A stretch of 35,500 bases of DNA from a virus, in the IMG/VR virus record IMGVR_UViG_3300006810_000159, positions 1-35,500 of that record; one strand, given 5' to 3'. Under the pieces are notes generated by a model, which worked only from the letters and a program-made list of their open reading frames with translations, searched no databases and had not been told where the DNA came from. Every line of letters begins with the position of its first letter. Positions within the stretch are counted from its first letter, which is position 1. The position numbers were made by a program, and so were the translations under genes. Positions 11,275 to 13,665 of the stretch are shown here, one piece after another.

Positions 11275-12609
11275 ATGGAAACTTATGATCGTCTCGTAGA
11301 GAAATGGTCTCCAGTATTGAACGAAGAAGCTGCCGGCACTATTAAAGATGCCCATAAGCGTGCAGTTACTGCAGCAGTTCTGGAGAACACAGAAAAGGCG
11401 TTGAGAGAGCAACAAGATTTGATGGAAACACCAGCAAACGCTACTTCATCAGTAGCTAACTGGAACCCTGTTCTTATCTCACTTGTTCGTCGCTCTATGC
11501 CAAATCTTATGGCTTATGACATTTGCGGCGTTCAGCCAATGTCAGGACCAACAGGCTTGATCTTCGCGATGAAGTCACTTTACAAAACAGAAAAAGCTGG
11601 TATCGCACAAGGTACAGAAGCACTGTTCAACGAAGCAGAAGTCAACTATTCAGGTGATTCATCTGCAACAGGTAACGGCACACGCGGACCATCAGGTCTT
11701 GCAGGTGCAACAGACACAGACGCTGACAGCTCAATCGTCGATTCCGGTTCTACATACGTTCCTGTAACAGGTGACGCATACGATACTGCAGAAGCAGAAG
11801 CACTAGGTAACACTGGTGAGTCATTTGCAGAAATGGGCTTCACAATCGAAAAAGCAACTGTGACAGCAAAGTCACGCGCATTGAAAGCAGAGTACACACT
11901 TGAGCTTGCGCAGGACTTGAAAGCAATCCACGGTCTAGACGCTGAGACAGAATTGGCAAACATCTTGTCAACAGAAATCTTGGCAGAGATCAACCGTGAG
12001 GTTGTTCGTACAGTTAACGCTCAAGCGAAAATCGGTGCACGTCAAGCAAACGTTACCACAAAAGGTATCTTTGACTTGTCATCAGACGCCGACGGTCGTT
12101 GGAGTGCAGAGAAGTTCAAAGGTCTTGGCGTACAGCTAGACCGTGAAGCTAACGTAATCGCAAAAGAAACACGCCGTGGTAAAGGTAACTTCATCATCTG
12201 TTCATCAGATGTTGCAAGTGCACTGGCAGCTTCAGGCATGTTGGATTACGCTCCTGCTCTTTCAACCAACTTGAACGTAGACGACACCGGCAACACATTC
12301 GCAGGTGTTATGAACGGTCGTATCCGCGTATACATCGATCCATATGCAACAACAGATTACATCAACGTAGGCTATAAGGGTACTAACCCATATGACGCAG
12401 GTGTATTCTATTGCCCATATGTACCACTCACAATGGTACGTGCGGTTGGTGAGAATGACTTCCAGCCACGTATCGGGTTCAAAACTCGCTATGGCATGGT
12501 ATCAAACCCATTCGTAGATACAGGTAACGCATCAGGCCGTGACGGTCTTGCAACTAACCGTGAGAACCAGTACTACCGCATCTTCCGCGTAGACAACATT
12601 CTTACATAA
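11275..12609 (+). CDS. 23: Major capsid protein gp23
   Basis: A 444-residue HK97-fold major capsid precursor (T4 gp23 is 521). Diagnostic blocks include WNPVLISLVRRSMPNLMAYD, the GVQPMSGPTGLIFAM segment, and the C-terminal YCPYVPLTMVRAVG / GFKTRYGMVSNPF region. A gp21-type cleavage site (LxE) is visible at Leu49-Met-Glu51, which would free a mature protein starting at Thr52. Codons are more GC-rich and uniform than in neighbouring genes, as for a very highly expressed gene. A strong terminator follows. Confidence 0.96.
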   Translation: METYDRLVEKWSPVLNEEAAGTIKDAHKRAVTAAVLENTEKALREQQDLMETPANATSSVANWNPVLISLVRRSMPNLMAYDICGVQPMSGPTGLIFAMKSLYKTEKAGIAQGTEALFNEAEVNYSGDSSATGNGTRGPSGLAGATDTDADSSIVDSGSTYVPVTGDAYDTAEAEALGNTGESFAEMGFTIEKATVTAKSRALKAEYTLELAQDLKAIHGLDAETELANILSTEILAEINREVVRTVNAQAKIGARQANVTTKGIFDLSSDADGRWSAEKFKGLGVQLDREANVIAKETRRGKGNFIICSSDVASALAASGMLDYAPALSTNLNVDDTGNTFAGVMNGRIRVYIDPYATTDYINVGYKGTNPYDAGVFYCPYVPLTMVRAVGENDFQPRIGFKTRYGMVSNPFVDTGNASGRDGLATNRENQYYRIFRVDNILT

Positions 12610-12659: not shown

Positions 12660-12684
12660 GGAGCGCTTCGGCGCTCCTTTTTTT
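12660..12684 (+). terminator. Strong intrinsic terminator after gene 23
   Basis: Stem GGAGCGC / GCGCTCC capped by a UUCG tetraloop, followed by seven T (12678-12684). This is a textbook rho-independent terminator ending the gene 21-23 late operon. The T-run overlaps the stop codon of the convergent minus-strand gene. Confidence 0.93.
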
Positions 12685-12883
12685 ACAAGAAGCAGACTTC
12701 TACTACTTCTTTTTCTTTTGTCAAGGTAACAACCCTAGCTTTGCTATGCCTACCCCTGACATGAACTTGAAACCATTCCCTGGCTTCAGTTTCAGCCTCG
12801 CATATGACAGCGCACCATTCAGGCAATTCGCTCTCGACTGCTTGGCACATAGTGCTAAATTGTGTTGTAACTGTCCAAGTCAA
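12683..12883 (-). CDS. Hypothetical minus-strand small protein (TTG start)
   Basis: A 66-residue protein with no recognised family. It has four Cys and several Trp/Glu residues but no membrane segment. The start is TTG, yet its Shine-Dalgarno region (AAAGGATATAAAA) is nearly identical to the one in front of gene 13, which argues that it is translated. A terminator oriented for this strand follows at 12641-12616. It is the last ORF of a minus-strand transcript likely started at 13665. The unusual start keeps confidence moderate. Confidence 0.55.
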   Translation of the reverse strand: MTWTVTTQFSTMCQAVESELPEWCAVICEAETEAREWFQVHVRGRHSKARVVTLTKEKEVVEVCFL

Positions 12884-13026
12884 TTTTATATCCTTTTATA
12901 ATTGTCTAGTTAATACCAGAGCTAGACTACGGCTTATCAGGGTAACCCTCAGACTAAGTAGTTGAACTTCTGCCATCTTATTTGTTCAACTTCTACTTGG
13001 CAACTTGTCTTCTCGTGGTGCCGCTT
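12884..13026 (-). other. Structured non-coding segment between minus-strand genes
   Basis: No ORF of note on either strand. On the minus strand there are two clear hairpins. One pairs AAGTA+GTTGAAC with GTTCAAC+TACTT (12 bp with a GAA bulge, loop ~16 bases). The other is GTCTAG / CTAGAC with a 12-base loop (12904-12927). With the adjacent 22-bp-stem domain it makes about 335 bases of structured, comparatively GC-rich sequence. No tRNA T-arm or other named RNA is recognised. Confidence 0.5.
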
Positions 13027-13220
13027 TAACTCCTTTCCTCATACGCCCAGCTAGTATCTCCAATCTCCCCGCACGGTCTTATTGACGTTGCCGCTCTAGT
13101 TTGATTGAAACTAACATCTCTGGGTTTCACGTCACCGATATTTCACGGGCGAATATATTCACCAGAGATCGTGTTTTCAGGTGGCCTGCCCTCCACACGG
13201 ACGTATGAGGAAAAGAGTCA
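13027..13220 (-). ncRNA. Large structured RNA domain closed by a 22-bp helix (candidate ncRNA)
   Basis: Bases 13199-13220 and 13027-13048 can pair as an unbroken 22-bp helix when read as minus-strand RNA: 19 Watson-Crick pairs plus three G-U wobbles, which would be A-C mismatches on the + strand. The enclosed 150 bases contain an 8-bp stem ATCTCTGG / CCAGAGAT and a 7-bp hairpin TTAGTTT-CAATC-AAACTAG whose last pair is also a G-U on this strand. The closing helix takes in the stop codon of the upstream 58-residue gene. No known RNA family is recognised; a small mobile element with terminal inverted repeats is the main alternative. Confidence 0.55.
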
Positions 13221-13394
13221 TAAGGTTTGTAGTAATAGGTCTGCTAGAATGACCCCAACAATACCACCAGCAAAACCCCAAGCCGCTATACCAAGTTCTT
13301 GTGATACAGATTTAACATCGGTTAACATCTGTGAAATAACTGTAGCACAAGCTCCACCCAGTATAAATCCTACGAAAATTACAAATCCTTCCAT
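13218..13394 (-). CDS. Small membrane protein, minus-strand island
   Basis: A 58-residue protein with two hydrophobic segments (about residues 2-23 and 38-56) rich in Gly, Ala, Ile and Val, separated by a short polar loop. It probably spans the inner membrane twice as a hairpin. I chose the ATG at 13394 because a near-perfect AAAGGAGACAAA Shine-Dalgarno precedes it; a longer frame starting at 13421 lacks one. Ten bases separate it from the upstream 68-residue gene, so the two form an operon. Function unknown; holin-like size but no other support. Confidence 0.75.
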   Translation of the reverse strand: MEGFVIFVGFILGGACATVISQMLTDVKSVSQELGIAAWGFAGGIVGVILADLLLQTL

Positions 13395-13404
13395 TTTGTC
13401 TCCT

Positions 13405-13611
13405 TTACGAAAAGTAGTCATCTACTAAAACCTCGAAGCACTCATAGAGATAATCCATTGAATAGAAATCTCTAAGATCTAAGCAAAGATCTGCATCTAC
13501 GAAGTCCCAATTTAAACCACCTGAAGTGTTGATGTTTTCTGGATTAGTAGTAGCTTTGTTGAAAGCTTCGATTACGTCCAGTTTGATAGCTGATCCATTA
13601 GGTAGTAGCAT
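13405..13611 (-). CDS. Hypothetical acidic small protein, minus-strand island
   Basis: A 68-residue acidic, soluble protein with an Asp/Tyr/Phe-rich C-terminal third. The ATG has an excellent Shine-Dalgarno (AAAGGAGATACCAA). It is the first gene after a well-formed minus-strand promoter (TTTACA-N17-TATATT) and is followed by the membrane-protein gene. No family recognised. Early or middle expression is inferred from the promoter type and from its orientation opposite to the late genes. Confidence 0.75.
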   Translation of the reverse strand: MLLPNGSAIKLDVIEAFNKATTNPENINTSGGLNWDFVDADLCLDLRDFYSMDYLYECFEVLVDDYFS

Positions 13612-13636: not shown

Positions 13637-13665
13637 AATATAATGTATTTCGAATCATTTGTAAA
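13637..13665 (-). promoter_or_regulatory. Promoter of the minus-strand island
   Basis: On the minus strand: GGGGG followed by TTTACA (13665-13660), a 17-base spacer, then TATATT (13642-13637), 26 bases before the ATG at 13611. It shares the GGTTTACA -35 block with the promoters at 16757, 23214, 24447 and 33374. Confidence 0.75.

Follow-up and report, generated by a model that had tools for sequence, protein, structure and literature searches.

The leaders of phage lambda N and E. coli adhE are controlled by RNase III: a long helix lies near the ribosome-binding site, and cutting of this helix would release translation. Phages and prophages also encode the large ornate RNAs ROOL and GOLLD, which self-associate through kissing loops in their solved structures (PMC12286853), and HDV-like theta ribozymes are structured phage RNA motifs linked to tRNA genes (PMC10879173). 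Judged by sequence comparison, the element described here belongs to a new family of structured noncoding RNAs that phages carry between the genes of operons, and it would be a small addition to the phage RNAs of long-open function (GOLLD, ROOL, and T4 species 1 and 2).

The window, meaning the whole 35,500-nt stretch that was analyzed, is an IMG/VR virus record (35.5 kb) of a T4-like phage in which a T4-type replication gene set is present. Its gp23 (11275–12609) is 67% identical to that of Phage C48C1 (Kyanoviridae), and a conserved 182-aa gene, nicknamed gp3, is found on the other side of a short minus-strand operon from gp23. The operon runs from a promoter-like site through a 68-aa ORF, a 67-aa ORF, the RNA, and a 66-aa ORF to a terminator-like hairpin. 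ARAGORN detected neither tRNA nor tmRNA in the window. The features, in the order of the minus strand, are as follows.

13637–13665, minus strand: sigma-70-like promoter TTTACA-17-TATATT upstream of the operon, a consensus match only
13405–13611, minus strand: 68-aa ORF, the first gene of the operon
13218–13421, minus strand: 67-aa ORF upstream of the RNA, membrane-like, no family match, stop codon within P1
13027–13220, minus strand: whole structured RNA (194 nt), closed by P1; covariance-model match 13026–13221, 155.5 bits
13199–13220, minus strand: P1 5′ arm, UGACUCUUUUCCUCAUACGUCC, overlapping the stop codon of the 67-aa ORF
13171–13198, minus strand: P2 stem-loop
13183–13186, minus strand: palindromic GGCC of the P2 loop, a candidate dimer contact (kissing loop), self-complementary in 42 of 42 copies
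13116–13169, minus strand: P3, optional modular stem that is absent, short, or long in relatives
13050–13115, minus strand: P4 stem with a 3-nt bulge
13071–13097, minus strand: near-invariant P4 tip, AGAGCGGCAAYGUCAAUAAGRCCGUGC
13027–13048, minus strand: P1 3′ arm, GGGCGUAUGAGGAAAGGAGUUA; two-sided changes in 12 of the 22 P1 pairs
13030–13036, minus strand: Shine-Dalgarno (SD) sequence AAAGGAG inside the P1 3′ arm; the start codon is 5–7 nt past P1 in relatives and displaced in the window
12894–13026, minus strand: insert of ~130 nt separating the RNA from the next gene, missing in the closest relatives
12683–12883, minus strand: downstream 66-aa ORF; TTG start in the window, ATG right behind the RNA in L002 and L012
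12622–12641, minus strand: terminator-like hairpin and T run, end of the operon

The insert at 12894–13026 contains a strong hairpin, occurs in no other locus compared, and leaves the 66-aa gene of the window with its TTG start.

The first-pass annotation had proposed that 13199–13220 pairs with 13027–13048 on the minus strand in an unbroken 22-bp helix, the start of which overlaps the TGA stop codon of the 67-aa ORF. Both points were borne out, and comparative evidence makes the pairing certain. The interior stems of 7–8 bp described there exist, but P4 is longer than was noted (13 pairs plus an inner hairpin) and P3 is optional in the family. The region is richer in GC relative to the DNA upstream of it, and the RNA itself can fairly be said to lack an ORF, as stated there, although a plus-strand TTG ORF (13105–13428) that has no homology support spans it. 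The minimum free energy of the window RNA is −76.5 kcal/mol compared with −51.4 ± 3.9 for shuffled sequences (z = −6.4; 0 of 200 shuffles), and a scan of the window gave a longest ungapped pairing run of 23 pairs on the minus strand vs. 17 on the plus strand. Maximal helix runs in 30 Markov shuffles of the window were 14–22, with 22 reached once. A 22-bp helix by itself is rare, yet possible by chance, and because the length of the window helix is not beyond chance, the case for an RNA rests on its homologues.

An exact 20-nt core matches 100 stretches in IMG/VR, and the RNA family is present in about 100 IMG/VR contigs from uncultivated phages. BLASTN comparison with relatives delimited the RNA as a discrete module whose flanking sequence is unrelated. 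A 42-sequence alignment of diverged copies was used to construct a covariance model of 154 positions. Family members are about 134–220 nt and consist of P1 (20–25 bp, ends ACU/AGU), P2, an optional P3, and P4 with its near-invariant tip, the best conserved segment of the RNA. P1 is 20–25 bp in 61 of 64 distinct copies, the length being counted ungapped, for which reason two of the three outliers are short; of its ends, ACU...AGU is invariant and CGUC...GGCG almost so, and its middle is rewritten with pairing kept.

RNAalifold identified 46 pairs in the 42-sequence alignment, 19 of them with two-sided changes. For the named structure, which is nearly identical to that of RNAalifold, 98.4% of cells in the 42 copies are paired vs. 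90.9% in shuffled and 38–46% in slid controls, the slid control leaning toward the structure because the structure was derived from the same alignment; pairs with two-sided changes number 20, compared with 11.3 after shuffling. The P1 counts (12 of 22 pairs with two-sided changes, in up to 21 of 42 sequences each) are independent of the slid-control bias. In the same alignment G-U cells outnumber A-C cells 326 to 11, so the functional strand is the minus strand of the window; a model of the antisense strand produced weak echoes only, from palindromic pairing at the same loci. The proposal of a minus-strand structured RNA is thus supported by compensatory changes as well as by the G-U excess, and where the first-pass annotation had named homologues without compensatory changes in the helix as counterevidence, the homologues do show such changes. 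The structured RNA is confirmed, and the covariation is so unusually clean that the fold is essentially settled ahead of any experiment.

That the RNA belongs to no known family, as had been suggested, also held. None of 4,227 Rfam 15 families matched the window at gathering, and matches at E up to 10 were chance-level and far below gathering; the GOLLD and ROOL profiles were not matched in these scans, nor did the RNA match the Rfam ribozyme families, HDV included. Group I or II intron, retron, and known ribozyme readings were dropped because their core elements are lacking, the models applied being those of Rfam. We found no earlier description in the open literature, subscription papers being mostly outside the search. 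In the genomes of the cultured relatives C48C1, HTVC008M, Mosig, Melnitz-3, S-SKS1, phiM12, DLP6, and T4, model matches were at chance level only, and BLASTN returned only chance matches from GenBank phages (queried with the window RNA, two other copies, and one type B copy) and from plasmids (queried with one copy). One stretch in GTDB genomes contains the exact core; its flanks are unrelated and it has no model match, so it was taken as chance. The family is therefore compact, widespread, and missing from Rfam and the searched phage isolates.

Among 25 records searched whole, 24 carry the RNA, the exception being G017 (147 kb), which was chosen for its gp3. Each carrier has a single canonical copy, including records of 178, 183, 204, and 275 kb, and the loci differ (a second row for G018 is the antisense echo of its one copy). 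All 28 further carriers likewise have one canonical copy, accompanied in two of them by a tandem sibling. One canonical copy per carrier contig at varying loci speaks for a gene and against a repeat. Of the four large records, three encode gp23 (55–69% identity); in the 275-kb record gp23 is undetectable and the replication genes differ, so the RNA is not confined to one phage group. No more than 4 of the 28 gp3 relatives >10 kb, mostly fragmentary contigs, contain the RNA, which is consequently not essential to the lineage. The carrier phages are apparently marine, on the basis of kinship to pelagic phages rather than sample metadata, and some contigs carry a permuted, two-piece alphaproteobacterial-type tmRNA (L096 9467–9844, L111 7460–7922, and L156 6549–6943; RF01849, RF04321; tags such as ANDNVAPSGYALAA), which suggests alphaproteobacterial hosts. 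Contigs L003, L011, L016, L032, L117, and L173 end within or just past the RNA, a pattern that would follow if assembly stumbled over nearly identical copies located at different loci.

The 3′ end of P1 contains GGAG in 29 of 64 distinct copies, 28 of which have a start codon 4–11 nt later, whereas ATG or GTG at that spacing is found in 5 of the 35 copies without GGAG, three of them within tRNA-adjacent sequence (Fisher p = 5e-12, relatedness ignored). The lone exception, with an SD in P1 and its start codon displaced by the ~130-nt insert, is the window copy; in L002 and L012 the ATG of the 66-aa gene lies 5 nt past P1. The end of P1 exists in two forms, ACUAUUU/AAAUAGU and ACUCUUU/AAAGGAGU, the opposite arm being altered to keep the helix when the SD is present, and P1 is therefore needed whatever follows, the SD being an add-on. 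Coupling to translation, which the first-pass annotation had placed at the upstream stop codon, is better supported at the 3′ side, where the 3′ arm doubles as the SD of the gene that follows, as it does in 28 of 64 distinct copies. The strict association of an SD in the closing helix with a gene directly behind it provides a testable link between RNA processing and translation. Since an SD is missing from P1 in about half of the copies, control of translation is not a general property of the family. Eight loci (L090, L096, L100, L102, L116, L132, L149, and L177), the window copy not among them, finish 1–5 nt ahead of tRNA genes, and other copies precede promoters, terminators, sibling RNAs, or genes with their own SD. 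Related junctions exist in RNA-free versions in L244 and L062. The downstream genes have no common theme, being mostly unknown small ORFs and one MazG-like gene, and Pfam and PHROGs gave no assignment for the neighboring small ORFs beyond one MazG-like and one function-unknown PHROG. A 68-aa protein family starting MRTVHYVGM (L103 3083–3289, L062 from about 620, and many other loci) lies behind the RNA in many phages; it is also found without the RNA, behind its own promoter, and has no Pfam or PHROG match.

The P2 loop contains a 4-mer that is self-complementary in 42 of 42 rows (GGCC 20, GATC 13, CCGG 5, GTAC 3, and TCGG 1, by wobble), counts to which we attach no p-value because related sequences are non-independent events. 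Different palindromes occupy the same context, as in GAGGGCA[GGCC]ACCT and GAGGGCA[GATC]ACCT or GAGGACCC[GGCC]GGCT and GAGGACCC[GTAC]GGCT, and in such otherwise identical contexts they differ by compensating double changes. This pattern indicates that the loop palindrome is under selection. A search of the 42-row alignment for an intramolecular partner found no site complementary to the loop in more than 40% of rows. Since four adjacent bases are unable to self-pair within one molecule, an intermolecular contact is the natural reading, and the palindrome, as a putative kissing-dimer signature, predicts an RNA dimer. A self-pairing loop with interchangeable codes offers a direct and cheap test of RNA homodimerization.

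Sibling RNAs retain parts of this architecture. Type B siblings (L031, L034, L264, L267, and L268; 54–79 bits) keep P1, P2, and the P4 base and have a different P4 tip. Two others, L102 421–529 and L106 5902–5993, keep P1 and P2 and have P4 replaced; each stands in tandem behind a canonical copy, with the loop code CCGG vs. GGCC (L102) or GATC (L106) in the canonical neighbor. The sibling at L163 461–554 keeps P1 and a P2-like hairpin from which the palindrome is absent. Other conserved elements occur nearby. One of ~100 nt, which has a GGGGAGG...CCUCUCCC hairpin at its end (L156 182–283, minus strand; also in L165, L132, L100, L102, L185, L135, L263, and L163), is often directly upstream of the RNA or near tRNAs. 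A distinct 120-nt RNA (L190 884–1003, minus strand; also in L134 and L139) lies directly upstream of the canonical RNA and is closed by a 21-bp ACUCUUU...AAAGAGU helix, its outer helix ends identical to those of the canonical RNA and its interior unrelated. GC-rich stretches beside the RNA (L104 8916–9014 and 9152–9215, L184 3001–3099) resemble more structured RNAs; the first L104 stretch is common to L184, and the region contains a tRNA.

We consider it somewhat probable that the element is an operon-embedded phage noncoding RNA that is excised by RNase III at P1 and acts as a dimer, and we infer its processing, dimerization, and function as follows. Host RNase III or a similar double-strand nuclease would cut the two-turn P1 helix, releasing an RNA of roughly 100–190 nt; such excision would require this arrangement, a conserved RNA closed by a two-turn helix whose length hardly varies. 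The same cut would create a new 5′ end on the mRNA or tRNA that follows and expose the SD; ahead of a tRNA gene, it would leave the tRNA for RNase P. Two freed copies could then associate via their palindromic P2 loops, and the dimer would present the near-invariant P4 tip to a partner. The invariant ACU/AGU ends of P1 could alternatively serve a phage protein. A more tentative and rather unlikely extension is a modular platform that moves between unrelated phage groups, combining a nuclease-cut P1, P2 loops with private palindromic codes for self-type pairing, and exchangeable P4 tips, with the helix lent as a ribosome-binding site before genes; if so, the differing codes of tandem siblings in one genome would confine pairing to RNAs of the same type.

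A cis-acting translational switch, riboswitch- or leader-like, in which the fold hides the SD in P1 until a ligand, protein, or temperature opens it, would account for the SD at exact spacing to the start codon in 28 of 64 distinct copies and for a highly conserved, aptamer-like core. We nevertheless regard it as distinctly unlikely, because thirty-odd distinct copies without an SD in P1 stand ahead of tRNAs, promoters, terminators, other RNAs, and genes with their own SD, the genes that do follow belong to unrelated families rather than sharing a theme in nearly all copies, and the window copy is no longer coupled to its gene. The presence of the same RNA at many unrelated intergenic sites, the related junctions without it (L244 and L062), and the invariant ACU/AGU ends would suit a mobile element with the 22-bp arms as terminal inverted repeats and the RNA fold as a by-product. 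This is very improbable: carriers have one canonical copy each, even on contigs of 178–275 kb, tandem pairs are variant siblings only, and the two arms of any one copy covary, tolerating G-U but avoiding A-C, a behavior not expected of DNA repeats; an incidental rather than systematic look noticed no target-site duplication, linked transposase, or homing nuclease. It is also highly doubtful that the element is purely a processing signal, offering a place to cut between two genes or ahead of a tRNA, with the interior as passenger. In favor of that reading are the near-constant length of P1, its placement directly ahead of tRNAs and SDs, and, in L134, L139, and L190, the presence beside the canonical RNA of an unlike one whose helix (ACUCUUU/AAAGAGU) is 21 bp. 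A passenger would drift, however, whereas the P4 tip is the most conserved part and the loop palindrome is under selection.

Among known RNAs, GOLLD, ROOL, and T4 species 1 and 2 come nearest in type. The excised, dimerizing RNA that we favor would resemble ROOL and GOLLD in being phage-encoded and often near tRNA genes, with self-pairing here predicted from a palindromic loop. In contrast, ROOL and GOLLD form nanocages and are much bigger, GOLLD often exceeding 800 nt, whereas this RNA is about 134–220 nt, is also found between protein genes, and can hold an SD in its closing helix. T4 species 1 and 2 (rnaC and rnaD), which are stable, are likewise small RNAs of a T4-type phage, and some copies of our RNA lie directly beside tRNA genes as they do; their predicted folds differ in that the 22-bp closing helix is absent, and the best model match in the T4 genome (11 bits, E = 2.9) does not indicate homology to rnaC or rnaD. 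HDV-like theta ribozymes share with it the linkage of a structured phage RNA to tRNA genes. The HDV-like ribozyme fold is a nested double pseudoknot, unlike the plain junction with a 22-bp closing helix found here. A parallel to the proposed processing may be the lambda N and adhE leaders, in which a long helix also lies near the ribosome-binding site and a cut would free translation; each of those, however, is an isolated leader that lacks a conserved and transferable RNA domain, whereas here the helix closes a conserved RNA and also occurs free of an SD.
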